This document shows positions 12,915 through 39,805 of a DNA stretch of 47,341 bases, piece by piece. Under the pieces are notes generated by a model, which had not been told where the DNA came from, searched no databases, and worked only from the letters and a program-made list of their open reading frames with translations. The DNA lies in contig JAFSNB010000030.1 of the NCBI GenBank assembly GCA_017447625.1, positions 1 through 47,341 on the forward strand. The letters run 5' to 3'. A program made the position numbers and the translations under genes. Position 1 is the first letter of the stretch. Each line of letters opens with the position of its first letter. The DNA comes from Bacteroidaceae bacterium. Its GTDB lineage: Bacteria; Bacteroidota; Bacteroidia; Bacteroidales; Bacteroidaceae.

Positions 12915-15446
12915 TTACTCCCAATAATATATGCGTTTAACGCGCGGGGAGACGGAGGTGAGGATTTCGTATGGGATAGTGTCTATGGCTTCAGCTAAGA
13001 CTGAGGGAGGGAGTTCGGGACCGAAGATGAGCACGGGATCGCCCTCCTCACAAGGAATGTCGGTGACATCTATCATACACACATCCATGCAGATGTTGCC
13101 GATATACGGCGCCTTCTTCCCCGCCACCAGACAATAGCCGTTACCACATCCGAGATGGCGATTTAGGCCGTCGGCATATCCAATGGGGATTGCGGCTATG
13201 CGACTGTCACGAGTGAGATGTCCGCGACGTGAATAGCCCACAGTCTCCTCTTTCGGAACCTCGCGAATCTGGAGGATTGTGGTTTTGAGGGTGGAGATGG
13301 GAGTCAGAGGAGAGTTGACAGTTGACATTTGAGAGTTGACAGTCGGAGTGATGGGATTTACTCCGTAGAGGCCGAGGCCGAGACGTACCATATCCAGATG
13401 ACGCTCGGGGAAGTGCTCGATGCCGGCGGAGTTGCAGATGTGGCGCAGGATATGATGCGGGAAGGAGGCCTGCAGCTGCTCGGAAGCGCGCAGGAAACGG
13501 TCGAACTGAATGGCAGAGAACATATCGAACTCCTCGCTGTCTGAACCCACGAAATGGCTGAACACGCTGCGCGGAATTAGAGCCGTCTGTGACGTGAGCA
13601 GATGAATCACCTCTGCGAGGTCGCGTTCCGGGTCGAAGCCCAGACGATGCATACCGGTGTCCAATTTCAGATGAATGGGATAATTGGTGATACCGGCACG
13701 CTCGGCGGTGTGAATCAGCGCTTTGAGCAGACGGAAAGAATAGACTTCCGGCTCAAGACGGAACTCGAAGAGGGTGTGGAAAGACGACATCTCGGGGTTC
13801 ATCACGATGATGTTCGAGGTGATTCCGGCGCGGCGCAACTCGGCACCCTCGTCAGCCACAGCCACAGCCAGATAATCGACTCCGGCGGCCTGCAGCGTCT
13901 TGGCAACCTCAACGGCTCCGGCTCCGTAGGCGGAGGCTTTCACCATGCAGACCATCTTCGTCTCGGGTCGCATAAACGAACGGTAGTAGCGCAGGTTCTC
14001 CGTCAGAGCGGCGAGATTCACCTCAAGGATAGTCTCGTGAACACGCTTCTCAAGCGCTTCGGTGATATGCTCGAAGCGGAACGAGCGTGCACCCTTGATG
14101 AGGATTACGCGGTTGCTCAATGACTCGAAGAGTTCCGAAGAGAGGAAGTCGGAGGTTGAAGGGAAAAGGGATGGGCGGCCCCCTTGCCCCCCGGAGGGGG
14201 GAGTTGAGAGTACGTCTCCTGCGAGGGATTTCATAGCCGCGCTGATTTCCGGCCCAATGCCAATGAGCTCCTCTATGCCATATTGCTGAACAAGCTCGAG
14301 AACATGCTTGTAGAGATCCATGAGACCAAGGCCCGTCTGCTTGATGTCCGAGAGGATGAGAGTGCGGCGGCGGCCTGCCTGATCCGGACGGCGGCGCATG
14401 AAATCGAGCGCAATCTCCAAGGAGTTGAGGTCGCTGTTGTAAGAGTCCGTGATGAGGGTGCAGCCGTGCAGACCTTCTTTCACCTCAAGACGCATAGCCA
14501 CGGGCTCGAGGCGTGACATACGCTGCGAAATCTTGTCCGGATTAAGGCCAAGACTGAGGCAGGCGCAGAGACAATGTATGGCGTCCTCTATACTGGCGTC
14601 GTCGATAAACGGCAGGGTGAAACTTCCGGAGGCGTTCTGTCCTTTGTATGAAACCTCGGTGGAGGTGTTCCCCTTCGAAACATTATCTATATATATAGGA
14701 GCCGAGGAATCTGTGGAGCTCCATCCGATGAGCTGGCAATTGAAATCTGAACGGGAGATGCAGTCGCTGATGAGCTCATCGTCGGCGTGATAAATCAGAG
14801 TCTTCACATCACGGAACAGGCGCAGTTTGTTCATACATTTCTCGCGGCGCGAACCGAAATTCTCGTCGTGTGCCGGCCCAATGCACGTGAGGATGCCGAT
14901 GGTGGGCTGGATTATCGACTGCAAAGCATCCATATATCCAGGGTCGGAGATTCCGGCCTCGAAGATGCCGAGCGTGGTTGTCTGCTCCAAGCGCCACACG
15001 GACAGAGGCACGCCGAGCTGGGAGTTCCACGAGCGGGGTGAACGCGTCACGGTCTCGTCATCGGCCGTCAGCTGGTAGAGCCATTCCTTAACTATGGTCT
15101 TGCCGTTGCTGCCCGTGATGCCTACGATGGGGATGTCAAAGCGCTCGCGGTGGCTGCGTGCAAGCTGCTGTAAAGCGGTCATCGTGGAGGCCACACGCAG
15201 GTAGTTGGCATCCGGCATAAGCATCTCCGGCAGATGTTCAACGACGAAATTGCGCACCCCGCGACGATAGAGTTCTCCGATGAAGCGGTGGCCGTCGTTC
15301 TTGCTTGTGCGGATTGCGAAGAAGAGGCTCTCCTCGGGGAACGTGAGCGAGCGGCTGTCGGTAAGCAGCCAGTCGATATCTGCTTTCGCGGTGCCAACGC
15401 GCTCGGCACCGATGATGTCTGAGATGGATTGAATAGTATATGTCAT
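12915..15446 (-). CDS. murF-alr: MurF-Alr fusion: UDP-MurNAc-tripeptide D-Ala-D-Ala ligase / alanine racemase
   Basis: 843 residues, two cytoplasmic enzymes of peptidoglycan synthesis in one chain, as is usual in Bacteroidetes. MurF part (~1-450): ATP-binding GITGSNGKTIVKEWL (residues ~109-123), GIFEAGISDPG, ITDSYNSDLNS. Alr part (~470-843): EVNLAALTENL, PLP-lysine motif MVKASAYGAGAVE, LKLDTGMHRLGF, AAIPIGYADGL and NICMDVCMIDVTD. Two insertions of repeat DNA lie inside the frame: a C-run/G-run element giving STPPSGGQGGRPS between the ligase domain's end segments, and a 7-bp array giving TVNSQMSTVNSP in the racemase domain. Both keep the frame. Starts in a 4-bp overlap with the GSCFA gene stop. 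Confidence 0.93.
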   Translation of the reverse strand: MTYTIQSISDIIGAERVGTAKADIDWLLTDSRSLTFPEESLFFAIRTSKNDGHRFIGELYRRGVRNFVVEHLPEMLMPDANYLRVASTMTALQQLARSHRERFDIPIVGITGSNGKTIVKEWLYQLTADDETVTRSPRSWNSQLGVPLSVWRLEQTTTLGIFEAGISDPGYMDALQSIIQPTIGILTCIGPAHDENFGSRREKCMNKLRLFRDVKTLIYHADDELISDCISRSDFNCQLIGWSSTDSSAPIYIDNVSKGNTSTEVSYKGQNASGSFTLPFIDDASIEDAIHCLCACLSLGLNPDKISQRMSRLEPVAMRLEVKEGLHGCTLITDSYNSDLNSLEIALDFMRRRPDQAGRRRTLILSDIKQTGLGLMDLYKHVLELVQQYGIEELIGIGPEISAAMKSLAGDVLSTPPSGGQGGRPSLFPSTSDFLSSELFESLSNRVILIKGARSFRFEHITEALEKRVHETILEVNLAALTENLRYYRSFMRPETKMVCMVKASAYGAGAVEVAKTLQAAGVDYLAVAVADEGAELRRAGITSNIIVMNPEMSSFHTLFEFRLEPEVYSFRLLKALIHTAERAGITNYPIHLKLDTGMHRLGFDPERDLAEVIHLLTSQTALIPRSVFSHFVGSDSEEFDMFSAIQFDRFLRASEQLQASFPHHILRHICNSAGIEHFPERHLDMVRLGLGLYGVNPITPTVNSQMSTVNSPLTPISTLKTTILQIREVPKEETVGYSRRGHLTRDSRIAAIPIGYADGLNRHLGCGNGYCLVAGKKAPYIGNICMDVCMIDVTDIPCEEGDPVLIFGPELPPSVLAEAIDTIPYEILTSVSPRVKRIYYWE
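13310..13344. repeat. Five 7-bp units inside murF-alr
   Basis: GAGAGTT, GACAGTT, GACATTT, GAGAGTT, GACAGTC: five exact heptamers. On the coding strand they encode TVNSQMSTVNSP in the racemase domain. The 35-bp length is compatible with the frame only together with flanking changes. Confidence 0.9.
14175..14206. repeat. C-run/G-run element inside murF-alr
   Basis: GGCGGCCCCCTTGCCCCCCGGAGGGGGG contains a CCCCCC-GG-A-GGGGGG hairpin plus an extra C-run. On the coding strand it gives PPSGGQGGRPS at the end of the MurF part. Confidence 0.85.
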
Positions 15447-16372
15447 GGCTCGATATTATATTTTTCCACCAGCTCGGCAAATCGCTGGCGTGTCTGGTTT
15501 ACAAATTCAACATTCTGGGGTGACGACGGGTCTGTGGGTCGATGTGTCAAAGCCTTGCGTATCGGCTCGAAATCAACGAAATAGCGGTGGCACTCATCGT
15601 CCATAAAGGCCTGAACGAAGCGTTCCCAGACGTAGTCAATGGCCTGCGAAGAGGGGTGCAGCATATCCTCGGCATAGAAGCGGTAATCGCGCAGTTCGTC
15701 CAGCACAAGCTCGTAGGCAGGGAAGTAGTTTACCTGATCGGGGCGCGCCTTCTGCACGGCATCGATGGCGAGCAGCAGAGTGGCCTTGGCCAGCTGGCTG
15801 TCGTGGAAGCCGTATTTGGCATAGCGGAAAGGCGAGACGGTGAATATCACCTGAGCCGAGGGGAAGAGCATACAGATGGAGTTCAGTATGGTCGTGGTCT
15901 CTTCGACCGAGAGCGATACCTCGCGGAAGGTGGCGGCGGGCTGTTTGTGGCAGTTGCCTACGGCCAGAGGCGAAGGCTCCAAGCGCTCGTAATAGCGGTT
16001 TGTGCCGAGAGTGACTATCAGCGTGTCGGGCCTCCACTCGAAGATGCGGCCACGGGCTGAGAGTACACCGGCTTTGCACGCCTCGAGCGAGGTGGCGTTG
16101 AAGCTGCTGTCGGTGAGCCAGCAATGCCATGTCCCGTGCTCATCTTTGAAATAGAGAGTGTCGGAAATGGGATTCTGGGTCAGAGCCTGAAGTATGGACA
16201 AGGGGTTATAGAGAACTCCGAAGGGGTTGACCAGAGCGGGCAGTCCGCTCTGTTTCATCCGCGCTCCGACATGCTCTGCAAAACAGGAACCGAGGAAGGT
16301 CACGTGACTGTTTACGGAGAGTGTCCGGGCGGGTGGCAAAATAGATACTTTTGTAGAGAATTGCATCATCAA
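15443..16372 (-). CDS. GSCFA-domain protein
   Basis: 309 residues. The N-terminal FLGSCFAEHVG (residues ~29-39) is the motif that names the GSCFA family, an SGNH-hydrolase-like fold; VTLGTNRYYE, FTVSPFRYAK and AEDMLHPSSQAIDYVWERF follow in the expected order, the last resembling the D-x-x-H block of SGNH hydrolases. No signal peptide. The substrate is unknown. It overlaps murF-alr by 4 bp, so the two are translated from one message; a link to cell wall or surface glycan modification is possible but only inferred from that. Its own promoter box is at 16412-16419. Confidence 0.85.
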   Translation of the reverse strand: MMMQFSTKVSILPPARTLSVNSHVTFLGSCFAEHVGARMKQSGLPALVNPFGVLYNPLSILQALTQNPISDTLYFKDEHGTWHCWLTDSSFNATSLEACKAGVLSARGRIFEWRPDTLIVTLGTNRYYERLEPSPLAVGNCHKQPAATFREVSLSVEETTTILNSICMLFPSAQVIFTVSPFRYAKYGFHDSQLAKATLLLAIDAVQKARPDQVNYFPAYELVLDELRDYRFYAEDMLHPSSQAIDYVWERFVQAFMDDECHRYFVDFEPIRKALTHRPTDPSSPQNVEFVNQTRQRFAELVEKYNIEP

Positions 16373-16411
16373 AAAGGCTAATGCTTAGGTGTAGTTTTGT
16401 ATTGTCAACGG

Positions 16412-16419
16412 CAAAAGTA
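16412..16419 (-). promoter_or_regulatory. -7 promoter box of the GSCFA/murF-alr operon
   Basis: TACTTTTG on the minus strand, about 40 bases before the GSCFA start. TTTG lies 22 bases further upstream (16442-16445), slightly farther than the usual 19-21. Confidence 0.6.
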
Positions 16420-16459
16420 GTGAAAAGGTGTGAAAGGGGAACAAAAATCATGCTTTTTT

Positions 16460-16490
16460 TTTGCTCTTAAGGTGAAAAGTCCTACATTTG
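16460..16490 (+). promoter_or_regulatory. Perfect Bacteroidetes promoter for dxs
   Basis: TTTG (16460-16463), a 19-base spacer, and TACATTTG (16483-16490) match the TTTG/TAnnTTTG consensus exactly. It is divergent from the GSCFA promoter and sits 23 bases before the dxs ATG. Confidence 0.8.
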
Positions 16491-16512
16491 TACCCAAATT
16501 AACACTCCATTG

Positions 16513-18420
16513 ATGAATAAAGACACGGAGGGAGCACCCCTTCTACCAAATATTGACTATCCGGCAGACCTCCGGAAGCTATCTGTCGAACAGTTGCCAC
16601 AGGTCTGCGACGAACTTCGCCAATTCATTATCGATGAGTTGGCAAAGAACCCCGGACATTTCGCTTCAAGCCTCGGCGTCGTGGAGCTGACAGTGGCCCT
16701 TCATTATGTGTTTGACACGCCCAACGACCGCATAGTTTGGGATGTGGGCCATCAGGCTTACCCGCACAAGATTCTGACGGGACGCCGCAAACGCTTCAGC
16801 ACCAACCGCCATCTGCACGGACTTAAGCCCTTCCCCTCGCCCGAAGAAAGCGAGTATGACTCATTCACCTGCGGACACGCCTCGAACAGCATAAGCGCGG
16901 CTCTCGGAATGGCTATCGCAGCAAAGGCAGGTGGGGAATCTAAGCGCCACGTGGTTGCCGTAATCGGCGACGGAGCCATGAGCGGCGGTCTGGCTTTCGA
17001 GGGGCTGAACAACGCCTCCGGACTGCCCAACGACCTGCTCATCATCCTCAACGACAACAACATGAGCATAGACCGCAGCGTTGGCGGAGTCAAACATCTG
17101 CTACATCAGCTGCAGACCAACCCGACATACAACCGCATCCGATACAAGACAGCCCAGAAGCTCTACTCGTGGGGCTGGGTCGGCGAAGAAGGACGGAGCG
17201 CGATACTACGTTTCAACAACTCGCTGAAATCGTTGCTCACACGCCAGCAGAACATATTCGAAGGAATGAACGTCCGCTATTTCGGCCCGAGCGACGGGCA
17301 CAACGTGATTGAGCTCGTTCACACCCTGCAGAACATCAAGGATATGCGGGGACCGAAACTCCTGCACATACACACCGTGAAGGGCAAGGGCTTCGAACCG
17401 GCTGAAAAGGAGGCTACGCTGTGGCACGCGCCAGGAAAGTTCGACAAAACCACGGGCGAGAGAATCCAATCGGACACCTCCCATCTCCCACCCCGCTTCC
17501 AGGATGTCTTCGGACACACGCTGGTGGAACTGGCGCGGCAGAACGACCGCATCGTGGGCGTAACACCCGCAATGCCGAGCGGATGTAGCATGAACATAAT
17601 GATGCAGGAGATGCCCTCGCGGGCATACGACGTAGGAATAGCCGAAGGACACGCTGTGACGTTCAGCGGCGGAATGTCCAAGGATGGGCTGATGCCCTTC
17701 TGCAACATCTACTCGTCATTCGCCCAGCGCGCCTACGACAATATAATTCACGACCTGGCCATTTCGCGCCTGAATGTGGTGCTATGTTTAGACAGAGCAG
17801 GACTAGTCGGAGAGGATGGCCCCACACACCACGGAGCCTTCGATCTGGCATATCTGCGCCCGATTCCAAACCTGACGGTGGCCTCGCCTATGGATGAGCA
17901 CGAATTGCGCCATCTGATGTTTACAGCCCAACTGCCCAACAAGGGGCCGTTCGTCATTCGCTATCCGCGCGGACGTGGGTCGCTCGTAGATTGGGAATGT
18001 CCGATGCAAGAAGTGCAGGTTGGCACAGGACGCAGGCTCAAAGAGGGCAAGGACGTGGCAGTACTGACTATAGGGCCGATAGGAACAACCGCAGCAAAAG
18101 CCATCAAGGAAGTCGAAACTGAACACCCGGAGATGTCTGTTGCGCACTACGATATGCGATTCCTGAAGCCGCTGGACGTAGCATTGCTGTGCGAAGTTGC
18201 CGAGGGCGGTTTTCGCCGCATCGTAACCGTCGAAGACGGAGTTCGTACGGGCGGTCTGGGCAGTGCCGTTCTGGAATGGATGAGCGACAATGGCTACGGC
18301 ACAACGCCCGTAAGACGTCTCGGACTGCCGGACGAGTTCGTGGAACACGGCACATGTGACGAACTGTATGCCATCTGCGGCATAGACAAAGAAAGTATAA
18401 AGAAAGCTATCACGCTATGA
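16513..18420 (+). CDS. dxs: 1-deoxy-D-xylulose-5-phosphate synthase
   Basis: 635 residues, normal length. Condenses pyruvate with glyceraldehyde 3-phosphate, the first step of the MEP isoprenoid pathway. TPP-binding motif [18 protein letters not shown] with [40 protein letters not shown] and the pyrimidine-domain block [17 protein letters not shown] are all present. The ATG at 16513 is preferred over an in-frame TTG at 16510. It starts a long co-directional block and overlaps trkA by 4 bp (ATGA), so expression of the two is coupled. Confidence 0.96.
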
Positions 18421-19805
18421 AGATAATTATTGCAGGCGCCGGAGCCGTAGGCACTCATCTGGCTGAACTTCTTTCCAAGGAGAGCCAGGACATCGTACTC
18501 ATAGACCCGGACGAGGATAAGCTGACGCGTGCCAGCGAAGGCCTGGACCTGATGACCCTGACGGCCGAACCCACGAGCATAAGCGGACTGAAAGAGGCCG
18601 GCACGCCTCAGGCAGACCTCTTTATCGCCGTCACCCCGAGCGAGACGCGAAACATAGCCTGCTGTATGCTGGCACACAACCTCGGGGCAAAGAAGACCGT
18701 GGCCCGAATAGACAACTCCGAATATATGGAGCCGCGCAACCGCGACTTCTTTGAGACTATGGGCATCGGAAGCCTGATTTATCCCGAGATGCTGGCCGCA
18801 AGCGAAATCGTTGACGGCGTGAAACGCTCTTGGGTAAGACAGTACTGGGAAGTGCACGGCGGCGCGCTCATCATGCTCGGAATAAAGTTGCGCGAGGAGG
18901 CGGCTCCGCTGTTTAACACACCCCTGAAAGACCTCTGCAAACCCGACACCCCATGGCATATCGTGGCAATCAAGCGCGACGAAGCGACTATTATCCCAGG
19001 CGGTCTAGATGTTCTGCAACTGGGAGACATCGCCTATTTCATGACCACGAAGAAGCACATGCCGCTTATCAGGCAGATTGTGGGCAAGGAGAAATATGCG
19101 GATGTGAGGAAACTGATGATTATGGGCGGAGGACGCATTTCCGTACACACTTGCCATCAGCTGCCTGACTATATGGAGGCTAAGCTTATCGAACTCAATC
19201 CCGCCAGATGTGCACGGTTAGCAGACTTACTTGACAACGATAACGTAATGATAATCAACGGTGACGGACGAGACTCTCAACTTTTACTCGAAGAGGGAAT
19301 CCGCAACACTCAAGCTTTCTGCGCCCTCACAGACGAGGCCGAGACGAACATCCTGGCCTGTCTCGCAGCCAAGCGCATGGGTGTTCGCAAGACCGTTGCT
19401 CTGATTGAAAACCTGGAATATGTGTCTATGGCCGAGAAACTGGACATCGGCACAATCATCAACAAGAAGACTATAGCTGCCAGCCACATCTACAAGATGA
19501 TGATGGAAGCTGACGTGATGAATGTGAAAGGACTCACCATAGCCGACGCGGAGGTGGCTGAGTTCATCGCTTCAGAAGGCTCGCCCGTATGCGAGAAACC
19601 GGTGATGGAGCTGGGACTGCCCAAGGGCATAACCATTGGCGGACTTGTGCGCAACGGCGTGGGACAGCTCGTCAGCGGCCGTTCGCAGATTCTGCCCGGA
19701 GACCGAGTAGTGGCTTTCGCCCGCACATCTATGATCAAGCAGATGGAGCGCTTCTTTAAGAAGCCCAAAAGCTCACTAATGTCAATACTGAGAGGCAAAG
19801 AGTGA
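18417..19805 (+). CDS. trkA: Trk potassium transporter regulatory NAD-binding subunit
   Basis: 462 residues made of two tandem RCK units (~1-225 and ~228-462). The first begins [19 protein letters not shown], a G-x-G-x-x-G NAD-binding fold with acidic D following (LIDPDED); the second begins [12 protein letters not shown]. Each is followed by a TrkA-C domain, the last ending [18 protein letters not shown]. It is a peripheral membrane protein gating the TrkH channel. No trkH gene is in the window. Start overlaps dxs, and its stop overlaps the next gene's GTG start. Confidence 0.93.
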
Positions 19806-20573: not shown

Positions 20574-20590
20574 TTATAAAGGCTAACAAT

Positions 20591-21703
20591 ATGGAAGAGA
20601 AAAAGACATGTCTTTATGACAAACATGTGGCTCTTGGAGCTTTGATGTCCCCATTTGGAGGCTTCATTATGCCAATTCAGTATTCGTCTATCATAGACGA
20701 GCATAACGCCGTGCGCCAACATTGCGGGGTGTTCGACGTTTCGCACATGGGTGAAGTGAGAGTGACTGGACCTGACGCTGAGCGTTACGTGAACCACATC
20801 TTCACCAACGACATCACCGATGCGCCGCAATACAAGATATACTACGGGATGATGTGTTATCCCGACGGCGGCACGGTGGACGATTTGCTGGTTTATAAGA
20901 TGGGCGAGAATGACTTTTTCATAGTGATTAACGCCGCCAACATAGACAAGGACGTGGCGTGGATGCTTCAGAATGCCGACGGATTAGATGTGAAGATTGA
21001 CCACCAGAGCGACTACTACGGACAGTTGGCCGTACAAGGCCCCGAGGCTGAGAGCGTAGTCGAAGAGGTGCTCGGTCTGGAATGTAGCGAGCTGGTCTTC
21101 TATACGGTAAAAGTGGCCCACCCCCAGCCCCTCCCCAATGGAGGGGAGGACACCTCTATAATAATCTCACGCACCGGATACACCGGCGAGGACGGCTTCG
21201 AGATCTATGGCTCACACGATTACATACGCGCCGCATGGGACAAGCTGATTGCCAGCGGCAAATGCAAGCCCTGCGGTCTGGGATGCCGCGACACCCTGCG
21301 CTTCGAGGTCGGACTGCCGCTCTATGGTGATGAGCTGAGTGCAGAGATAACCCCGATAATGGCAGGATTGGGCATATTCGTGAAACTGGACAAGCCCGAA
21401 TTCATCGGCCGTGATGCTCTCGCCAAGCAGAAGGCTGAGGGCGCACCCAAGAAACTGGTTGGAATAGAACTGAAGGACAAGGCGATTCCTCGTCACGGAT
21501 ATGCAGTACTTGCCGACGGGCAACCCATCGGCGAGGTCACCACTGGGTACCATTGCCTGAGTGTAGATAAGAGCGTTTGCATGGCTCTTATTGACGCTCA
21601 GTATGCAAAACTCGGCACCGAGGTCGAAGTCCAGATCCGCAAGAAGACATTCCCCGGTATCGTGGTCAAGAAGAAGTTCTACGAGAAGCACCATAAGAAA
21701 TAA
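20591..21703 (+). CDS. gcvT: Glycine cleavage system T protein (aminomethyltransferase)
   Basis: 370 residues. Transfers the methylene group from GcvH-bound aminomethyl-lipoate to tetrahydrofolate. Motifs: HVALGALMSPFGGF, FDVSHMGEVRVTG, NDITDAPQYKIYYGMM, LAVQGPEAE, SRTGYTGEDGFEIY, PCGLGCRDTLRFE and TGYHCLSV. A short insertion AHPQPLPNGGED sits between the KV and TSIIISRTGY segments and is encoded by a C-run/G-run hairpin element; ordinary GcvT proteins have only a short turn here. No glycine riboswitch fits in the 60-bp leader, so control may be from the dxs promoter. Confidence 0.95.
   Translation: MEEKKTCLYDKHVALGALMSPFGGFIMPIQYSSIIDEHNAVRQHCGVFDVSHMGEVRVTGPDAERYVNHIFTNDITDAPQYKIYYGMMCYPDGGTVDDLLVYKMGENDFFIVINAANIDKDVAWMLQNADGLDVKIDHQSDYYGQLAVQGPEAESVVEEVLGLECSELVFYTVKVAHPQPLPNGGEDTSIIISRTGYTGEDGFEIYGSHDYIRAAWDKLIASGKCKPCGLGCRDTLRFEVGLPLYGDELSAEITPIMAGLGIFVKLDKPEFIGRDALAKQKAEGAPKKLVGIELKDKAIPRHGYAVLADGQPIGEVTTGYHCLSVDKSVCMALIDAQYAKLGTEVEVQIRKKTFPGIVVKKKFYEKHHKK
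21118..21150. repeat. C-run/G-run hairpin element inside gcvT
   Basis: CCCCTCC (21128-21134), loop CCAAT, GGAGGGG (21140-21146) with a leading CCCCC. It encodes HPQPLPNGGED in frame at a surface turn before the SRTGYTGEDG motif. Confidence 0.9.
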
Positions 21704-22356: not shown

Positions 22357-23687
<1,331 letters not shown>

Positions 23688-23691
<4 letters not shown>

Positions 23692-25142: not shown

Positions 25143-26600
25143 ATGACTAAAGAGACATCATCCAGTCTAACTCATTCTGCTCCCTCCCTAACAGGGAGGG
25201 CGGGGGGAGAGTCCGCGGGGGGAGAGTCTCTACTCATCCTCGGCGCTGGCCCCGGAGGTTACCGCGCCGCTGCCTATGCGGCACAAAAGGGGCTCAAGGT
25301 GACAGTCATCGAGGCGGCAGAGGCTGGAGGCACTTGCCTGAACTGCGGATGCATCCCAACGAAGAGCCTCTGTCACGACGCAGAGATTGGGAGTCGCGAC
25401 TTCGCAGCCGTAATGGCACGCAAGGACGAGGTGGTGACATCGCTCCGCAGCGGTGTCGAGACGATTCTTTCAGCTCCGAACATTTCCCTCGTGCGCGGGC
25501 GCGCGCAATTCATTAATAATAATACTGTGCGCGTAGGCGACGAAGAATACACCGCAGACAACATCATCATAGCAACAGGATCGCGGGCCAAGCTACCTCC
25601 TATCCCAGGAATAGACAGCCCGCGCGTGGTCACTTCCACCGAGATGCTGGCCCTCAACGAAAAGCCCGAACGTCTCTGCATTATCGGCGCAGGCGTTATC
25701 GGACTGGAATTCGCATCCTGCTTCTCTGCCTTCGGCAGCAAAGTCACGGTTATAGAGTTCATGAAAGAGTGTCTGCCCACGATGGACTCCGACATAGCCA
25801 AGCGCCTACGCAAAACATTAGAGAAGCGCGGCATCGAGTTCCATCTGCAGAGTGCCGTAGAGAGTATCGAGGACAAGAGCGACTGCGCTGTGGTCCACTT
25901 TAAGAAAGAAAGCAAGAAAAAAATCCTTCCCCCCACGACTTCTCTCCCCCCCACGGGTTCTCTCCCCCCCACGGGGGGAGTTGGAGAGGGGCCCGGAGAG
26001 GGGCCCGGAGAGAGGCCCGGAGAGGGGCTTTCAACTGTCGAAGCCGACCTTGTTCTGGTGGCTACAGGCCGCGCCGCAAATATCGAGGGGCTGAATCTGG
26101 AAGCCACGAGCGTCCAGACCGACCGCCGCGGCATAGTGGTCAATCCAGAGACTTTTGAGGCCGCCCCTCACGTCTATGCCATAGGTGATGTCAACGGACG
26201 ACAGATGCTGGCTCACGCCGCTACCTATCAGGGACTGCGGGCCGTGAACCACATCCTCGGCATCAAGGACAATATCCGTCTTGACATTATGCCAGCAGCT
26301 GTATTCACCCATCCGGAGGCTGCCAGCGTCGGCCCGACCGAAGATCAGTCGTTCACAGTTCACAAAGCTATCTACCGCGCTAACGGCAAGGCTCTGGCCA
26401 CAGAAACATCCGAAGGGCTCGTCAAAATCCTTACTGACGAGTCTGACCGCATCGTAGCTGCACACATCCTCGGCTCTCACGCCGCAGACATGGTTCAGGA
26501 GATTGCCGCTCTGATGAACTGCGACGTAACCCTTTCTCACCTCCGCGATATGGTGCACATCCACCCGACCCTCGCGGAAATGCTAACCGAAGTATCCTGA
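25143..26600 (+). CDS. lpd: Dihydrolipoyl dehydrogenase (L protein)
   Basis: 485 residues from ATG 25143 (an in-frame TTG at 25134 is less likely). Reoxidises dihydrolipoyl-GcvH with NAD. FAD motif LILGAGPGGYRAAAYAAQKG, redox-active GGTCLNCGCIPTKSLC (with an extra Cys between the two redox Cys), NAD motif IIGAGVIGLEFAS, AIGDVNGRQMLAHAA and the C-terminal HIHPTLAEML. Two repeat-derived insertions: an N-terminal ~20-residue Ser/Gly stretch before the FAD strand, and LPPTTSLPPTGSLPPTGG plus GEGPGEGPGERPGEG within the NAD domain. Both are in frame. It closes the gcv block, before a 22-bp palindrome array and a terminator. Confidence 0.95.
   Translation: MTKETSSSLTHSAPSLTGRAGGESAGGESLLILGAGPGGYRAAAYAAQKGLKVTVIEAAEAGGTCLNCGCIPTKSLCHDAEIGSRDFAAVMARKDEVVTSLRSGVETILSAPNISLVRGRAQFINNNTVRVGDEEYTADNIIIATGSRAKLPPIPGIDSPRVVTSTEMLALNEKPERLCIIGAGVIGLEFASCFSAFGSKVTVIEFMKECLPTMDSDIAKRLRKTLEKRGIEFHLQSAVESIEDKSDCAVVHFKKESKKKILPPTTSLPPTGSLPPTGGVGEGPGEGPGERPGEGLSTVEADLVLVATGRAANIEGLNLEATSVQTDRRGIVVNPETFEAAPHVYAIGDVNGRQMLAHAATYQGLRAVNHILGIKDNIRLDIMPAAVFTHPEAASVGPTEDQSFTVHKAIYRANGKALATETSEGLVKILTDESDRIVAAHILGSHAADMVQEIAALMNCDVTLSHLRDMVHIHPTLAEMLTEVS
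25178..25232. repeat. C-run/G-run element in the lpd N-terminus
   Basis: CCCTCCCT-AACA-GGGAGGG followed by two GGGGGGAGAGTC units. It encodes a PSLTGRAGGESAGGES stretch just before the FAD-binding strand. Confidence 0.85.
25925..26031. repeat. Expanded C-run/G-run element inside lpd
   Basis: Three CTCTCCCCCCCACG-type units (period 18) are followed by GGGGGGAGTT and three GAGAGGGGCCCG units (period 12-15). The first half is complementary in style to the second, so the mRNA can form a long hairpin. It encodes Pro/Thr-rich then Gly/Glu-rich low-complexity sequence. Confidence 0.9.
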
Positions 26601-31169: not shown

Positions 31170-31198
31170 TTGACAGTTGACGACTTGACAGTTGACAA
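31170..31198. repeat. 7-bp array (TTGACAG)
   Basis: TTGACAG, TTGACGA, CTTGACAG, TTGACAA directly after the HAD stop codon; same unit as at 37584 and inside murF-alr and ccsA. Confidence 0.85.
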
Positions 31199-31202
31199 AT
31201 AA

Positions 31203-33154: not shown

Positions 33155-33208
33155 ATATTAATTAATGTATTATTTATACTTCGGATAGTGTATTCACAAA
33201 AATCGCCG

Positions 33209-33216
33209 CAAAGTTA
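33209..33216 (-). promoter_or_regulatory. -7 promoter box of spt
   Basis: TAACTTTG on the minus strand, 54 bases before the spt start codon. Confidence 0.55.
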
Positions 33217-33310
33217 AACATAATTTCGTGAATAATGCTTCAAAATAAATAAAAATGTTATTTTTAATCTTCTTTTGCATAGGTTTTCGTGTTGAAGACC
33301 ATAAAAAACG

Positions 33311-33318
33311 TATATTTG
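33311..33318 (+). promoter_or_regulatory. -7 promoter box of the lipid-kinase gene
   Basis: TATATTTG only 9 bases before the ATG at 33328, so the message would be leaderless or nearly so. Confidence 0.6.
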
Positions 33319-33327
33319 CACCCGATT

Positions 33328-34347
33328 ATGACACGAAAGAAACTACTTTTCATAGCAAATCCCATTTCCGGCACTCAAGATAAGCGCCCGATTATTGAAG
33401 CTGTGCCGAGATTCCTGCCTGAAGAGCAATTCGACTGGCAGGTGGCTTGGACTAACCATCAGGGGCACGCTGCCGAGTTGGCAAGCGAGGCCGCTGCTGA
33501 AGGGTTTGATATTTGCGTGGCAATCGGAGGAGACGGAACGGTGAACGAGGTAGCACGCTCACTCCGGCACACACAGACCGCTCTGGGAATTATTCCTATG
33601 GGAAGCGGAAACGGGCTGGCACGCCATCTGCTTATCCCGATGGATCCGGAGGGCGCCTTGGCCGTGATTGCCGACTGCCAGATCAAGGAACTCGACTACG
33701 GGCTCATCAACGACATCCCGTTCTTCTGCACCTGCGGCATGGGCTTTGATGCTTTCATCAGCGAGAAATTCGCCGACAGCGGCAAGCGCGGACTCATGAC
33801 TTACGTGGACAACACCGTGAAGAGCTCACTTGCATACAAGCCTGAGACCTACGAGATAGAAGTCGATGGAAAGACAACTCACTATCACGCTTTCCTCATT
33901 GCCTGCGGTAACGCCTCACAATACGGGAACAACTTCTACATAGCACCCCACGCCTCTATGAGCGACGGCCTTATGGACGTAACCATCCTGGAACCATTCA
34001 ACGTGCTCGAAGCCGCACAGGTGGTTGTGCAGATGTTGGGCAAGAACATCGACGAGAACCCGCACACCCGCTCATTCAAGTGCCAGTCCATGCGCGTCCA
34101 TCGCGAGAAACCGGGTGTTATCCACTTCGATGGCGACCCCGTGGATGCAGGCACAGACATAGAGATAAAACTGATTCCACGCGGACTGCACGTGGTTGTC
34201 AATGAGCGCGGAGACCGGTCGGCCTCGCCCGTTCAGCATATCTTCCAAGATCTGATGGACCAGATAAACACAAGCATACGTAACCGACAGCGCAAGCTGC
34301 AACGCTCGGGCAAAGAACTGCTCGAACGCATTACACCAAAGAAGTAA
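33328..34347 (+). CDS. Lipid kinase, DAGK/YegS/LCB5 family
   Basis: 339 residues from ATG 33328; the frame is open to 33289, but the promoter at 33311 lies inside that extension. DAGK catalytic domain: LLFIANPISGTQDK at the start, VAIGGDGTVNEVARSL (ATP loop, G-G-D-G-T), GIIPMGSGNGLARHL, and DGLMDVTILEPF at the C-terminal half. Phosphorylates diacylglycerol or a sphingoid base. Because it is divergent from spt a role in sphingolipid metabolism is attractive but not proven. YgiQ starts 3 bp after its stop. Confidence 0.85.
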   Translation: MTRKKLLFIANPISGTQDKRPIIEAVPRFLPEEQFDWQVAWTNHQGHAAELASEAAAEGFDICVAIGGDGTVNEVARSLRHTQTALGIIPMGSGNGLARHLLIPMDPEGALAVIADCQIKELDYGLINDIPFFCTCGMGFDAFISEKFADSGKRGLMTYVDNTVKSSLAYKPETYEIEVDGKTTHYHAFLIACGNASQYGNNFYIAPHASMSDGLMDVTILEPFNVLEAAQVVVQMLGKNIDENPHTRSFKCQSMRVHREKPGVIHFDGDPVDAGTDIEIKLIPRGLHVVVNERGDRSASPVQHIFQDLMDQINTSIRNRQRKLQRSGKELLERITPKK

Positions 34348-34350
34348 AAG

Positions 34351-36237
34351 ATGCTCCCCACCCTCCCCCTTCCAACGACCCGTAAGGAGATGGAGCAACG
34401 CGGCTGGACTCAGGCCGACGTTATCCTCTTCAGCGGTGACGCCTACGTGGACCACCCATCGTTCGGAGTGGCCGTCATAGGTCGTATCTTGGAGGCAGAG
34501 GGCCTGCGTGTCGCCATCGTTCCGCAACCCGACTGGCACGGCGACCTGCGCGACTTCAAGCGTCTCGGACGTCCGCGTCTCTGGTTTGGCATCTCACCAG
34601 GAGCCATGGACTCTATGGTGAACAAATACACGGCAGCACGCCGTCTGCGCTCTGAAGACGCCTACTCTCCTGACGGCCGTCACGACCTGCGCCCGGAGTA
34701 CCCCACAATCGTCTATTCACAGATCCTGCGGCGTCTCTACCCGGATGTTCCCATTGTGGCAGGGGGCATAGAGGCATCCATGCGCCGACTCACGCATTAT
34801 GACTACTGGCAAGAGCGTTTCCGCCCGAGCATACTCTGCGACAGCGAGGCCGACCTCATCATCTACGGCATGGGCGAACAGCCGACCATAGAGATGGCAC
34901 ACCTGCTCGTGGATGCCATAGAGACCTACCACCCGCTTCTGGACTATGACGAGGAGGGAGCCGCAAGGATGAGCCGTAGCGCTTTCCGCGATGTTCTTGG
35001 GATTGAAGGTCAAGGGCAGCCGCAACTGCGACAGATTGTCTATACATCCTCCTCCGCAGAGCCAGAAGCAGACGACATCGTACTTCATTCTTTTGAAGAG
35101 GCAAGCAAGCAGCCGCGCCTTCACGCCGAGAACTTCAAACACATCGAAGAGCAGTCTAACCGCTGGCAGGCAAAACGAATCTTCCAGCGCACAGGCAATG
35201 AGTGGGTGATTTGCGAACCGCCCTACCCTCCTATGACTACGGAGCAGTTGGACAACAGCTTCGACCTCCCATACACCCGTGTTCCGCATCCCAAATACGC
35301 TGGCAAACGGATTCCGGCATACGAGATGATTAAGTTCAGCGTATGTCTGCACCGAGGCTGTTTCGGCGGTTGCGCGTTCTGCACAATTTCCGCTCATCAG
35401 GGCAAGTTCATCGCCAGCCGCTCCAAAGAAAGTATCCTGCGCGAAGTCAAACAGATAATGTTGATGCCCGGATTCAAAGGCTATCTGTCGGACCTCGGAG
35501 GTCCATCAGCAAATATGTATATGATGCGAGGGCGCAATCAGCGTGCCTGCCAGAAATGCAGCCGCCCCTCATGTATTCATCCGCAGGTCTGCCCTAACCT
35601 AAACGGCGACCACACAGCCCTTATAGACATCTACCGCTCAGTCGATGCCATAAAGGGCATAAAGAAGAGTTTCATCGGGAGCGGCGTGCGCTACGACCTG
35701 ATGTTACACGACTGGAAGGACGAGCGTCTGAACCGCGCAGCATCCAATTACACACGCGAACTCATCACCCGCCACGTCAGCGGACGTCTGAAAGTGGCCC
35801 CCGAGCACACTTCCGACCACGTCCTCAACCTGATGCGAAAGCCGTCGTTCAAGCTCTTCCACGATTTCAAGCGTTTGTTCGACCGCATCTGCGACCAGAC
35901 GGACATGCACCAACAGCTGATACCGTATTTCATCAGCAGCCACCCGGGATGCACAGCCGAAGACATGGCCACGCTCGCCGTGGAGACCAAACGGATGGAC
36001 TTCCGCCTGGAACAGGTTCAGGACTTCACTCCAACTCCGATGACAACCGCCACCACCGCGTGGGCCACAGGCTACTATCCCGACACCCTTCAACCCGTAT
36101 TCTCCGCCCGTTCGCCCGAAGAGAAACAGACCCAGCGTATGTTCTTCTTCTGGTACCAGCCGGACAAACGCCGCGAGATAGAATCGGAACTGCGGCATAT
36201 CGGACGCGAAGACCTCATCACAAAATTATTTAAATAA
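34351..36237 (+). CDS. YgiQ-family radical SAM protein
   Basis: 628 residues. N-terminal B12-binding-like part (ADVILFSGDAYVDHPSFGVAVIGRILEAEG), then the radical SAM core with CLHRGCFGGCAFC (4Fe-4S cluster, residues ~332-344) and YLSDLGGPSANMYMMRG, and the DUF3362 C-terminal domain with the second Cys set CQKCSRPSCIHPQVCPNL. EDEAP-like QVQDFTPTPMTTATTAW motif near the end. The reaction of YgiQ is unknown. Co-directional and almost adjacent to the lipid kinase. Confidence 0.92.
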   Translation: MLPTLPLPTTRKEMEQRGWTQADVILFSGDAYVDHPSFGVAVIGRILEAEGLRVAIVPQPDWHGDLRDFKRLGRPRLWFGISPGAMDSMVNKYTAARRLRSEDAYSPDGRHDLRPEYPTIVYSQILRRLYPDVPIVAGGIEASMRRLTHYDYWQERFRPSILCDSEADLIIYGMGEQPTIEMAHLLVDAIETYHPLLDYDEEGAARMSRSAFRDVLGIEGQGQPQLRQIVYTSSSAEPEADDIVLHSFEEASKQPRLHAENFKHIEEQSNRWQAKRIFQRTGNEWVICEPPYPPMTTEQLDNSFDLPYTRVPHPKYAGKRIPAYEMIKFSVCLHRGCFGGCAFCTISAHQGKFIASRSKESILREVKQIMLMPGFKGYLSDLGGPSANMYMMRGRNQRACQKCSRPSCIHPQVCPNLNGDHTALIDIYRSVDAIKGIKKSFIGSGVRYDLMLHDWKDERLNRAASNYTRELITRHVSGRLKVAPEHTSDHVLNLMRKPSFKLFHDFKRLFDRICDQTDMHQQLIPYFISSHPGCTAEDMATLAVETKRMDFRLEQVQDFTPTPMTTATTAWATGYYPDTLQPVFSARSPEEKQTQRMFFFWYQPDKRREIESELRHIGREDLITKLFK

Positions 36238-36240
36238 TTC

Positions 36241-36335
36241 TTAATTATGAGCCTTCGCTCAACAATACGTCATAATGCATAATTCATAATTGGGCTCGGA
36301 ATAACGATTAAACGATTAGTCGATTAAACGAAATC
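36241..36335. repeat. 7-bp (CATAATT) and 8-bp (ACGATTAA) arrays
   Basis: CATAATG, CATAATT, CATAATT near 36270-36292, then ACGATTAA, ACGATTAG, TCGATTAA, ACGAAATC at 36304-36335, in the spacer after ygiQ. Confidence 0.7.
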
Positions 36336-36397
36336 AAATTAAACTTTAAAGCAAAACGCGTGTCAAACTCTTAAACCATTAAACATCCAACCTATAC

Positions 36398-36422
36398 CCC
36401 CCGCCGGGGGGGTTACGGGGGA
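36398..36422. repeat. C-run/G-run element
   Basis: CCCCCCGCCGGGGGGG followed by TTACGGGGG, ending 11 bp before the next ATG; the same placement as the element before gcvH. Confidence 0.75.
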
Positions 36423-36432
36423 CAAACACTTT

Positions 36433-36858
36433 ATGAAAAAGATTCTCACCATCATTGCTGCCTTCTTCATTCTGGCAGTACAGCCCACTCAAGCAGGCTC
36501 AAAGCTTGAGAAGCGTTACGCTTACACACTGAAGAAACTGAAACTCGACAAAGCTACAGAAGCTCAGTTCGCCCCTGTCCTTCACAAATATCTTGAGGAG
36601 CGCAAGGCCGCCAACGACATCTACGATGATGTCAAGGATAAATACAAAGCTGCCGAGAAAGCCGGCACTCTGACTTCAGCCCAGGGCCTCGCCCTCATGG
36701 ATGCCAAGATCGAGTCCGACACCAAGATGCTTGCTGTCCGCAAGAAATATCTTGCCGAATTCAAGAAATACCTGAAAGGCAACAAAATCTACTATGCCTT
36801 CGACTACAGCAATGACAAGATGAGCAAGATTGAGGGCAGGGACAAGGACGACGAATAA
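36433..36858 (+). CDS. Small exported helical protein
   Basis: 141 residues. Signal peptide MKKILTIIAAFFILAVQPTQA, then an all-helical Lys/Glu-rich chain (KLEKRYAYTLKKLKLDKATEAQF, LEERKAANDIYDDVKDKYKAAEKAG, KMLAVRKKYLAEFKKYL). The helical hairpin layout with a length of ~120 mature residues is reminiscent of Spy/CpxP-like periplasmic proteins, but the LTxxQ repeats of that family are not clear (only ATEAQF and TSAQ). Function unknown; periplasmic location likely. Confidence 0.7.
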   Translation: MKKILTIIAAFFILAVQPTQAGSKLEKRYAYTLKKLKLDKATEAQFAPVLHKYLEERKAANDIYDDVKDKYKAAEKAGTLTSAQGLALMDAKIESDTKMLAVRKKYLAEFKKYLKGNKIYYAFDYSNDKMSKIEGRDKDDE

Positions 36859-36865
36859 ATTGCTG

Positions 36866-36873
36866 TATATTTG
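36866..36873 (+). promoter_or_regulatory. -7 promoter box of the HD gene
   Basis: TATATTTG, 23 bases before the ATG at 36896; the duplicated copy has TACCTTTG here. Confidence 0.6.
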
Positions 36874-36895
36874 CAGCGAAAAAAGCAGGCGGCCC

Positions 36896-37513
36896 ATGAT
36901 GGAAGTGAATCCGGAGCTGCGAGAATATGTCGAGTCACATATCATTCCGCGATATGACGGCTTCGACAAGGCTCATCAGTGCAATCATGTGCAGATGGTT
37001 ATACGGCAGAGCATGGAACTGGCGGAGAGGTTGCAGGTGGATGTCAATATGGCGTATGCCATAGCCGCTTACCACGATACGGGACTGTGTGAAGGACGGG
37101 AACTGCATCACGAGGTGTCGGCAAGGATTATCAGGGCTGACCACGAGCTGCGCAGGTGGTTCACAGAAGAACAGATTGAGATTATGGCGGAGGCTGTGGA
37201 AGACCACCGCGCCTCTTCTGACCACGAGCCTCGCTCCATATACGGCCGTATCGTGGCTGAAGCGGACCGTTTCATTGACCCGGAGACCATTGTCAGAAGG
37301 ACCATTCAATACGGTCTTGACCACTACCCCACTTTGTCACGCGAGGAGCATTTCCGGCGCATGGTCAGTCACCTCAAGGAGAAATACGGGCGCGGCGGCT
37401 ATCTGCACCTGTGGTTCGATGACTCGCCGAACGCCCGGCGGCTGCATCAGCTTCAAGACTTGATAGATGACGAGGCGGCTCTTCGCAAGCTCTTCTTCTC
37501 TTACAAGAATTAG
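36896..37513 (+). CDS. HD-domain hydrolase
   Basis: 205 residues from ATG 36896 (a second ATG follows at once). HD phosphohydrolase pattern: HQCNHVQMVIRQSMELAERL (first His), AYHDTGLCEG (His-Asp pair), HHEVSARII and EDHRASSDHEPRSIYGRIVAEADRF (last His/Asp). Metal-dependent phosphohydrolase on nucleotides or similar, substrate unknown. The promoter at 36866 excludes the longer frame starting at 36830. It precedes the DUF3667 gene, and the pair was duplicated together, which suggests they form a unit. Confidence 0.85.
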   Translation: MMEVNPELREYVESHIIPRYDGFDKAHQCNHVQMVIRQSMELAERLQVDVNMAYAIAAYHDTGLCEGRELHHEVSARIIRADHELRRWFTEEQIEIMAEAVEDHRASSDHEPRSIYGRIVAEADRFIDPETIVRRTIQYGLDHYPTLSREEHFRRMVSHLKEKYGRGGYLHLWFDDSPNARRLHQLQDLIDDEAALRKLFFSYKN

Positions 37514-37583
37514 AGATAGTGCTATCCGCAGGGAGTATTCTTGAATTCTATCCGTTCTTGATAATCAAGAAACAGTTAACCAA

Positions 37584-37604
37584 TTGACAGTTGACAATTG
37601 ACAG
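37584..37604. repeat. Three 7-bp units (TTGACAG, TTGACAA, TTGACAG)
   Basis: One unit more than the duplicated spacer at 5267-5280. Confidence 0.95.
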
Positions 37605-37711
37605 TTAATCCCTTCTCACACGAATGACCACGAATATTTATGATGATTATATGGAGAATAATTCATACACATTAAATGTGAGTTAATCCCATTAAACATA
37701 AAACTATAAAT

Positions 37712-38581
37712 ATGGCAATTATAATGGATTTTATCAAACGACTGAAACGCTGGAAGCAGAGCTGGCCTGAACCACGAGCCACATACAACTTCGAGGTCAC
37801 GGAGCACCACTGCCTCAACTGCGGCAAGGACTACACGGGCAACTACTGCCCTTACTGCGGCCAATCGTCCAACACCCGGCGCTTCACATGGAAGAGTATG
37901 CTGATTGGAATTCTGGATGTCTGGGATCTCTCGGGACGCTCGGTACCCAGCACCCTTCTGCAATTCACCTACCGCCCAGGATACCTGCTACGGGACTACT
38001 TCAAGGGGCGCCGTCAGAGCTATTTCCCGCCCATCAAATTGCTCCTGTTGGTGTCGGTACTGACGCTCACCTTCGAATTCTTTGTGCCTCCCATCAATTC
38101 AAGGAAGGATGAGAAGACAGAATTCAGCACCAAGGAAAAGAATGAATATAGGAGAGAATACAAGAGAATTTTATACAATTATATGGATGCCACTTTCAAA
38201 TGGGGTGAAGAGAATTCGGGATGGGGTGCGCTGATGGTTCATTCGTTCTTCATCATACCTACGTTCTTGTTCTTCCGCCGTTCTCGCTTATATCCGAAAA
38301 TCACCGTGCCCGAGTGTTTCTTCATGCAGGCGTATCTCTGTAGTGCGATGCTGATCTACTCTTGTATATCGGGCTACATACGAGGCTTCATCTTTTTTTA
38401 CTTCCCGATATTCTATTTGGCGTACCACCAGCTCTTCGGCTACAGCAGATGGGGCACCTTGTGGCGAACTTTGCTGACCGTGTTCACCGGCATTGTCATA
38501 CTGTTCATTTTTCTCATATTCTGCGCGTATGCCATTGCTCTCTATCTCGCATGGTTCCGTAATATGCCAATGGAAATGTAG
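37712..38581 (+). CDS. DUF3667-like zinc-ribbon membrane protein
   Basis: 289 residues. Zinc ribbon CLNCGKDYTGNYCPYCGQ (residues ~35-52) followed by R-R-F-T-W, as in the DUF3667 family. Five or so hydrophobic segments follow: near LLLLVSVLTLTFEFFV (~111-126), SFFIIPTFLFF (~175), QAYLCSAMLIYSCI (~205), FIFFYFPIFYLAYH (~228) and IVILFIFLIFCAYAIALYLAWF (~258-280). Inner-membrane protein of unknown function. A truncated copy is at 4675-5159. Confidence 0.75.
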   Translation: MAIIMDFIKRLKRWKQSWPEPRATYNFEVTEHHCLNCGKDYTGNYCPYCGQSSNTRRFTWKSMLIGILDVWDLSGRSVPSTLLQFTYRPGYLLRDYFKGRRQSYFPPIKLLLLVSVLTLTFEFFVPPINSRKDEKTEFSTKEKNEYRREYKRILYNYMDATFKWGEENSGWGALMVHSFFIIPTFLFFRRSRLYPKITVPECFFMQAYLCSAMLIYSCISGYIRGFIFFYFPIFYLAYHQLFGYSRWGTLWRTLLTVFTGIVILFIFLIFCAYAIALYLAWFRNMPMEM

Positions 38582-38627
38582 GGCTAATGGCAAACGTAGA
38601 GAAACTTGTAATAAACTCTAAAAAACT

Positions 38628-39005
38628 ATGAAAAAAGTAATCAGCACATCAAAGGCTCCAGCAGCTATTGGGCCTTACAGTCAGGCCATTCAGGTAGGCA
38701 ATTTCGTATATACTTCCGGCCAGATTCCCATTGACACATCCACTGGGCAGTTCGCCGAAGGGGGCATCAAAGAACAGACCCGTCAGTCGCTGCTCAACGT
38801 GAAAGCCATCCTTGAAGAGAGCGGTCTAAAGATGAGTGATGTGGTGAAGACCACGGTGTTCATGGCAGACATGAATGACTTTGCCGACATGAACTCGGTT
38901 TATGCCGAATTCTTCTCCGAGCCCTATCCTGCTCGTTCGGCTGTAGCAGTAAGGACTTTACCCAAAGGGGCTTTGGTGGAAATAGAAGTGGTTGCTTACC
39001 GCTAA
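38628..39005 (+). CDS. ridA: RidA-family reactive enamine/imine deaminase
   Basis: 125 residues, normal length. [55 protein letters not shown] and the active-site Arg in [23 protein letters not shown] are all conserved. Hydrolyses 2-aminoacrylate and similar imines released by PLP enzymes, preventing PLP enzyme damage. It overlaps the convergent ccsA gene by 4 bp at the 3' end. Confidence 0.95.
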
Positions 39006-39805
39006 GAACTGGTGCTATAGGTGTGCACACTGGTCTCTCGTGCGGAGGGCAGGTAGTTAATACCCCACCAGCACATCTGCAGGAGCATAAAGGCGACAAT
39101 CAGCATCCACAGGGCGAGACGACTGCTGTGCCGCGGAATACGGCGATAATGAATGTAAACGAGATAGGCAAGCCAGGTGATGGCTGCCCACGTCTCTTTG
39201 GGGTCCCATGACCAGTAGTGGCCCCAAGCTTCCTTGGCCCAAAGTGCTCCGAAGAGCATACCGAAAGTCATGAAGGCCAAGCCTACTTGGACGAGGTTAT
39301 CTAATTGAGAGTTGATAGCTGACAGTTGATAATTTTTCTTTACGAGACCATAGACTGCCATTAAGGCAGACGCGCCAAGTACGGCGTAGGCGAACATATA
39401 TACTATGACGTGAGGGGCGAACCATGGGCTCTGCAAGGCGGGCATCAATGTCTTGTCGTGAATCTCCGGTTTAAACAGGTTCACGCAGATAAACACCAGA
39501 GAGAGGACAGTAGAGAACGAGAGTATCCACTTGTATTTCCAGCGCGCAAATACTATAAGTCCAGACAACGGCAGGAAGAACGAGTACCAGAGTCGTGTCT
39601 CGCCCATAGTGCGCAAAGGCGGGCGCTCAAGCGATATCCACATCGAGAGGATGAAAGAGAAGAATACAAGCAGGCCGGCGGCGGTGGCCGTATAAGCTGT
39701 TCGCGTCTTTCCCATCCATGCTGCCCAGGCTCCAACGCCCCATGACAACACCGCTACAATAGCGAAATATATGAAATAGTTCCAATCCATAAATGCATTT
39801 ACCAT
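39002..39805 (-). CDS. ccsA: Cytochrome c biogenesis protein CcsA/CcmF type
   Basis: 267 residues, about eight membrane helices. WW-type heme-handling motif [18 protein letters not shown] (residues ~192-209) between helices. Part of the system II apparatus that delivers heme for attachment to exported c-type cytochromes, together with the ResB-like protein encoded upstream. Between two helices the chain reads [16 protein letters not shown]; this is encoded by four 7-bp repeat units in frame. Start is either Met1 or the Met at residue 6. Confidence 0.88.
39305..39332. repeat. Four 7-bp units inside ccsA
   Basis: TTGAGAG, TTGATAG, CTGACAG, TTGATAA. On the coding strand they give LSAINSQLD in a loop between helices. 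Same unit family as in murF-alr and gcvPA. Confidence 0.9.

Follow-up and report, generated by a model that had tools for sequence, protein, structure and literature searches.

Stop-free heptamer arrays lie in frame within conserved genes of a Bacteroidaceae bacterium and its relatives

Introduction

How do unrelated housekeeping proteins come to share a short peptide? The question is raised by contig JAFSNB010000030.1 (assembly GCA_017447625.1) of a Bacteroidaceae bacterium, analysed over a stretch of 47,341 nucleotides, here called the window. Three conserved genes of the window, gcvPA, murF-alr and ccsA, carry tandem arrays of a 7-bp unit, which in gcvPA is CTCAACT. We find that stop-free arrays of this kind sit in frame and in sense orientation in conserved genes, where they either occupy variable segments or substitute for a short stretch of native protein. 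In GcvPA, relatives have gained or lost the array-type block several times, while the flanking DNA differs far less. Array-type blocks that lack exact repetition differ from each other mostly by synonymous changes.

Arrays in the window

The arrays and their host genes are listed in Table 1. The original prediction described exact heptamer arrays in all three genes. The arrays are indeed in frame at the predicted places, but exactness holds for gcvPA only, where lag-7 matches are 21/21 (22929-22956). The murF-alr array is imperfect (22/28 at 13310-13344; Tandem Repeats Finder (TRF) row 13313-13343, 83%), and the ccsA array is degenerate (15/21 at 39305-39332; no TRF row at score 30). That the three belong to one heptamer family is borne out by their best 28-base windows, which match TCAA[CT]TN at 28/28 (gcvPA), 27/28 (murF-alr) and 27/28 (ccsA) bases, with no match of at least 24/28 in 10 Markov shuffles of the window. 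Two non-coding arrays, near 31170 and 37584, had been assigned to the same family. Both exist, but only that at 37572-37608 reached 24/28 or better; that at 31170-31197 did not.

An array of 7-bp units passes through all three reading frames in 21 bases, so that every phase gives the same 7-residue cycle, LSTLNSQ for CTCAACT. Because any phase gives this cycle, convergence of housekeeping proteins is not needed, and the peptide marks the repeat. The earlier idea that the shared peptide stems from repeat DNA read in frame therefore stands, but no special event is required to explain the sharing.

The antisense unit, AGTTGAG, contains a TGA stop. The 2340 heptamer necklaces include 1608 without a stop, and in 87% at least one strand is open; the units AATTATG, AGTTTAA, CTAATCT and TAACCTA, all from the same genome, are closed on both. 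At the loci fetched, the codon score places 9 of 36 CTCAACT arrays in genes, compared with 1 of 30 AATTATG arrays (Fisher p 0.017). Such in-gene counts are low estimates, because about one coding position in four escapes the gene calls (of 600 positions drawn at random, 365 were in-gene at a coding fraction of 0.80).

The GcvPA site in related species

The site was compared in 64 GcvPA proteins, 63 of them from genomes of the same genus (out of 103 with a match) and one, L171, from a named Prevotella record. The genus appears to be Prevotella-like, since L171 falls among its GcvPAs.

Aligned with the closest relative, G059, the array peptide L-S-T-L-N-S-Q-L-S-T replaces ten unrelated residues, R-N-D-L-Q-A-R-L-N-E, for a gain of a single residue. 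The leucines at positions 6 and 10 of the native TDRNDLQARLNE coincide with Leu positions of the array. When the protein is compared with the structure 1wyt_A, the loop opposite the array region is shorter in the latter. An AlphaFold helix over the array, at 191-198, was set aside as not usable (mean pLDDT 39.6, two sequences).

An array-type block, exact or decayed, is present in 12 of the 64 proteins. On a 64-tip tree built without the block columns, its state changes 8 times, as it also does with nodes below 0.9 collapsed; 1000 shuffles gave a mean of 11.2 changes and a minimum of 7. The block comprises 12-13 codons, and 60 bp on either side were taken as flanks. In six pairs (L359/L369, L357/L361, L360/L380, L012/L386, L356/L387 and window/L010) identity is 31-41% in the block and 63-93% in the flanks. 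In the lineages that have it, the array shows a common phase and begins at the same codon, with 3' ends of two kinds. With respect to phase-variable contingency repeats, whose copy-number changes turn the reading frame on and off, the GcvPA array versions seen in these genomes are in frame.

Some array-type blocks are not repeats at the DNA level. Non-repetitive DNA in L012 and L360 codes for nearly the array peptide, and the two blocks are separated by 6 synonymous changes and 1 non-synonymous change (P 0.003); L013 and L015 differ synonymously at four codons and by one amino acid. Assuming that segments of the L012/L360 type derive from arrays, this suggests that the peptide has been kept while the DNA repeat was lost. 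Relatives with the same residues and no repeat, which the original prediction had counted as evidence against itself, are found in part: L012 and L360 come near to this, while in further close relatives the residues are unrelated. The segment is not conserved across the family, so on this point the prediction survives.

The GcvPA of L171, an uncultured Prevotella, has a second in-frame insert, of 24 aa relative to the window protein, after VGMTH.

Arrays in other genes and genomes

Eight further open reading frames (ORFs) of the window's genome, all with Pfam domains, carry family arrays in frame; they were picked from 30 of 115 overlapping matches, with L004 added. Named from their Pfam families, they encode AlaRS, SerRS, NAGLU, a GH2 enzyme, an arabinofuranosidase, an indolepyruvate-oxidoreductase-like protein, an epimerase and an esterase. 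In four of them (L004, L252, L255, L258) the array lies within the best domain stretch. In the esterase (L238) it is near the start of the ORF and may precede the start codon, because there is no coding signal upstream. Two proteins of other genomes were scanned alongside: a reductase has a TCAATGT-type array inside its domain, and the other has no family.

A scan of named genomes for (CTCAACT)x4 gave at least 118 loci, with titles for 80 of the 118. Among the matches listed, to which the following counts refer, 74 of 125 places fall within ORFs of 100 aa or more that continue for 20 aa on either side, and all 86 ORFs of at least 100 aa that hold an array do so in sense orientation. The 49 ORFs that measure 300 aa or more and extend for 30 aa on either side of the array were scanned against Pfam at a cut-off of 1e-5. 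A family came up in 45 but not in L147, L168, L175:5984-7999 and L189. In 19 of the 49, not counting an SMC coiled coil, the best stretch of a domain encloses the array; examples are ATP synthase a, QueA, aspartate-semialdehyde dehydrogenase (Asd), SufS, HisS, LigA (L200), NqrA and the carbamoyl-phosphate synthase large chain. Arrays in ORFs are 29-40 bp long (n=49) and those outside any ORF 29-118 bp (n=51, p 0.022), in a comparison that left out 25 places in shorter ORFs.

The original prediction spoke of Bacteroidales. This scope is too narrow, in that Pfam-bearing host ORFs also occur in records titled Levybacteria (GlmS, L155), Verrucomicrobia (L123) and Anaerolineae (L141), the array in the last two being outside the domain match. 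Levybacteria belong to the Patescibacteria.

Two side observations concern neighbouring sequence. The carA genes L133 and L163 (about 77% DNA identity here) both hold in the CarA linker a CTCAACT array and a hairpin-type peptide, TPNPSPVREG and TPDPSPKGEG respectively. In two species, the indolepyruvate-oxidoreductase-like protein (L251 of the window's genome, and L154) has a family array shortly before RPPQLCQGCG. In addition, (CTCAACT)x4 is present in 19 IMG/VR viral stretches.

Replacement rather than insertion

The repeat DNA had been predicted to be inserted, or expanded, within the genes. Where homologues could be compared it is mostly a block replacement: in seven of eight cases the length differs by no more than 3 aa. 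The comparisons with solved structures were made on five hand-picked ORFs of the 49. SufS of L156 matches 29 of 30 relatives in length and aligns with 6mr2 without a gap, as does the array segment of GlmS (L155) with 4amv. HisS is changed by -3 aa, Asd by +3 aa, and CcsA by -1 aa relative to its two closest relatives. In MurF-Alr the array adds 1 aa relative to G059, in a loop whose length is very variable among the 28 relatives shown. Of the original prediction, the location of the arrays in variable segments is supported, but insertion or expansion within the reading frame mostly is not.

Abundance of period-7 arrays

Arrays of at least 28 nt and at least 85% were counted in the window and 15 sampled stretches of the same genome, together 313,553 bp. 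There are 35 arrays of period 7, and in a Markov-1 control there are none of any period. Other periods are represented by 11 arrays (period 8), 5 (9), 2 (11), 3 (12), 9 (14) and 1 (15), and at the same thresholds there are none in this sample of periods 5, 6, 10, 13 and 16. Of the 35, two are wholly within predicted genes and 33 are not, at a coding fraction of 0.80; the arrays of murF-alr and ccsA fall below the threshold and are outside this count. Dispersed 7-bp tandem arrays, mostly between genes, are thus a vocabulary of this genome. As tandem 7-bp units that occur above chance at many genome places and mainly in intergenic DNA, they agree with long simple sequence repeats (LSSR) and with the heptamer repeats of cyanobacteria, which are named STRR.

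The unit (CTCAACT)x3 occurs in 22 of 61 genomes of the genus, this one included, and in only 1 of 247 sampled genomes of the phylum, namely this one; the sample contained just two other genomes of the family. The CTCAACT unit is therefore lineage-specific. The possibility that it is a phylum-wide favourite was rejected, as the composition-matched control CATCACT occurs in 7 of the 247. Reading the pattern backwards provides no control, since reversal of CTCAACT gives the same array. We make no claim on a preferred start or end of the element, because array ends in the family search are biased by the search pattern.

Origin of the arrays

On the basis of these observations, we hypothesise that arrays are copied over short gene stretches and then filtered by selection, and that the peptide is a tolerated filler; on balance we think this probable. 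Existing array DNA would enter genes by being copied over a short stretch, perhaps by microhomology-driven template switching or by short-tract gene conversion from an array elsewhere or in a relative. Selection would then purge copies with a stop codon, a frame shift or a place in the structured core. The filler peptide would need no gain of function. At GcvPA and SufS its leucines match native hydrophobic positions.

A bolder version, which is conceivable although we lean against it, is that stop-free arrays are interchangeable protein parts. They would be recopied over segments of housekeeping proteins (GcvPA, SufS, GlmS, HisS and others) with length and hydrophobic spacing kept, and purifying selection would then hold the peptide while the DNA repeat decays, making repeat DNA a standing source of new protein sequence.

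Several observations weigh against the copying hypothesis. No donor copy, junction signature or enzyme was found. LigA of L158 has a true insertion of about 36 aa, which also holds an apparent second heptamer peptide, ESGEWRV. In SufS the block stands out less from its flanks: it is 22, 33 and 50% identical to three relatives, with 72, 49 and 51% upstream and 65, 73 and 60% downstream. The native SufS of L411 reads DLSTL at the place of the array, so a local seed is possible. At GcvPA, the pair L356/L385 is less clear (block 54%, flanks 73-78%), and the upstream 60 bp of window/L010 are themselves low, at 63%. As to stop codons, the stop-free unit TCAATGT is in genes in 3 of 26 cases, no different from CTCAACT at 9 of 36 (p 0.21), and the sole in-gene AATTATG array (L328) shows that genes can carry even a closed unit if a base substitution abolishes its stop. 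A special amphipathicity of LSTLNSQ was considered and rejected, its hydrophobic moment of 0.26 ranking 907 among the 1608 stop-free heptamers. Finally, the same boundaries in several GcvPA lineages could reflect one origin and lateral exchange.

This last point leads to the alternative that survives best, which as a general account we consider rather unlikely: that each site had one origin, and that array and native versions are old alleles swapped between species by short-tract homologous recombination. At GcvPA, lateral exchange of one old allele is a serious rival, given the common phase and first codon of the array and its two kinds of 3' end, described above. L357 and L359 are 100% identical over the 36-nt block and agree in the codon after it, ATA, where L013 reads GTT; yet over the whole gene L357 is closer to L013 (92.8%) than to L359 (86.5%), and 0 changes in 36 nt at 86.5% identity have a probability of 0.005 under simple drift. 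However, the 60-bp flanks of L357 and L359 are 87% and 85% identical, no closer than the whole gene, so that exchange would have to involve very short tracts. Nor does this alternative account for the other genes and phyla.

It is less likely still that the arrays arose by slippage in situ, a chance near-repeat in a permissive segment being homogenised to a 7-bp array and later trimmed by selection on length. The idea that 7 nt correspond to the polymerase contact has been published (Mrazek 2007, as told in PMC4679880); the native DLSTL of SufS L411 could be such a start, and GcvPA L382, with lag-7 matches of 15/21, could be an intermediate. Against this, single 7-bp steps break the frame whereas the blocks hold their length, and one unit is found in unrelated genes despite their differing local sequences.

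Convergent selection on proteins for LSTLNSQ is highly improbable: it would account for the hydrophobic spacing kept at GcvPA and SufS and for the peptide being kept by non-repetitive versions, but not for exact DNA repetition at 21/21, nor for the same peptide in unrelated proteins, nor for its absence from the closest relative. An artefact of assembly or binning can be dismissed almost entirely, since, although most of the genomes are metagenome assemblies and the arrays are short repeats, in many genes and species the reading frame runs on undisturbed at either side of the array, several genomes agree in GcvPA state, and isolate-titled records (Bacteroides sp. 224, Bacteroides sp. 519 and Stieleria) also hold the array, albeit not in an ORF of 100 aa.

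Relation to known repeats

Heptamer LSSR were described by Mrazek (2007), as told in PMC4679880, and the heptamers GGGAATC and GGGGATT are known from Xanthomonas and Nostoc (PMC4692102). The TAACTGA repeats of Beggiatoaceae, some of them within ORFs, come with a stop-codon orientation rule and the remark that TAACTGA in reverse encodes a heptad (MacGregor 2015, PMC4679880). The original prediction knew of no named description for Bacteroidales; these repeats are a published sister case, and heptamer repeats, their occasional location in ORFs and the orientation rule are already known. All these heptameric repeats, STRR included, resemble the present arrays in having 7-bp units, dispersed and mostly intergenic, with a lineage-specific unit. 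A difference is that in MacGregor 2015 function-assigned ORF copies are at protein ends with one exception, whereas here 19 of 49 are inside domain matches, replace native residues and recur at one site. What looks new is that arrays recur within conserved domains and that they replace blocks; among the titles listed by searches of open-licence papers, none dealt with block replacement or with heptamers inside genes of Bacteroidales.

The arrays had also been likened to Rickettsia palindromic elements (RPE; Ogata 2002; Claverie and Ogata 2003, cited in PMC3733652), which are dispersed repeats in frame inside unrelated functional genes. In this respect the likeness holds, the heptamer arrays lying in frame in unrelated conserved genes. 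It fails as regards the palindrome, since CTCAACT reads as another unit, AGTTGAG, on the opposite strand. The four-heptanucleotide elements of Geobacter metallireducens (PMC2700814) have another unit and are described as predicted regulatory RNA elements. PARCEL (PMC2996958) shares tandem repeat DNA, a periodic peptide and dispersal across taxa; however, its units are palindromic, of 25 residues and variable number, in ORFs without assigned function, while the heptamer arrays have a 7-residue period, measure 29-40 bp in ORFs and sit in housekeeping genes, without a 25-residue unit.

Other repeats at the same or nearby sites

Other species have different repeat families at the same variable sites: L054 has CCATTGT-type heptamers in its Alr loop, L045 has AACTTTC in the MurF/Alr linker, and CcsA of L091 contains G/C-run hairpin sequence, as do the MurF/Alr linker and the putative gcvT of the window itself. 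The hairpin pattern, CCCCTCC..GGAGGGG, has 18 matches in the 313,553 bp, 9 of them inside predicted genes, compared with 1 in a Markov control. Of the two dispersed repeats, this hairpin looks the closer to a Bacteroidales counterpart of RPE. A further one lies at 25180-25226. The gene at 20591-21703 that holds one of the hairpins in Table 1 is putatively gcvT, by operon context. The AATGGTCAATGTTC array is probably upstream of the real start of its ORF, because the G059 homologue begins just after the array. It has an ATG every 7 bp, so that copy number alters the count of possible start codons.

Table 1. Repeats in the window and the genes that hold them.
Feature	Positions	Strand	Remarks
gcvPA, glycine dehydrogenase subunit 1	22357-23691	+	Pfam GDC-P 5.2e-132; hosts exact array
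Exact CTCAACT array in gcvPA	22927-22958	+	TRF 100%
murF-alr fusion	12915-15446	-	Pfam Mur_ligase_M and Ala_racemase_N/C
Imperfect array in murF-alr, loop between two Alr domains, TVNSQMSTVNSPL	13310-13344	-	27/28 to family
ccsA, cytochrome c assembly	39002-39805	-	Pfam Cytochrom_C_asm 3.9e-33
Degenerate array in ccsA, QLSAINSQL, variable segment	39302-39332	-	27/28 to family
Non-coding TTGACAG array	31170-31197	+	TRF
Non-coding array, TCAA[CT]TN family	37572-37608	+	TRF; 27/28 to family at 37581
G/C-run hairpin-type repeat joined to CTCTCAACT, in frame in MurF/Alr linker, STPPSGGQGGRP	14173-14210	-	Absent in G059
G/C-run hairpin repeat CCCCTCCCCAATGGAGGGG, in frame in gene 20591-21703	21119-21149	+	Absent in G059
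18-bp and 12-bp tandem repeats, LPPTTSLPPTGSLPPTGGVGEGPGEGPGERPGEG, in frame in lpd (Pfam Pyr_redox_2)	25926-26039	+	Absent in G059
14-bp (2 x 7) AATGGTCAATGTTC array at start of ORF 11378-12244	11363-11528	+	

Conclusion

The absence of a stop codon on one strand offers a simple rule for which repeats can enter genes. At one codon-precise GcvPA site, related species present a natural series of exact array, decaying array, array-like non-repetitive block and native block, and the entry of repeat DNA into coding sequence can therefore be traced stepwise. A caution also applies to alignments, gene-transfer calls and structure work: a variable segment of a Bacteroidales enzyme may prove to be repeat DNA.

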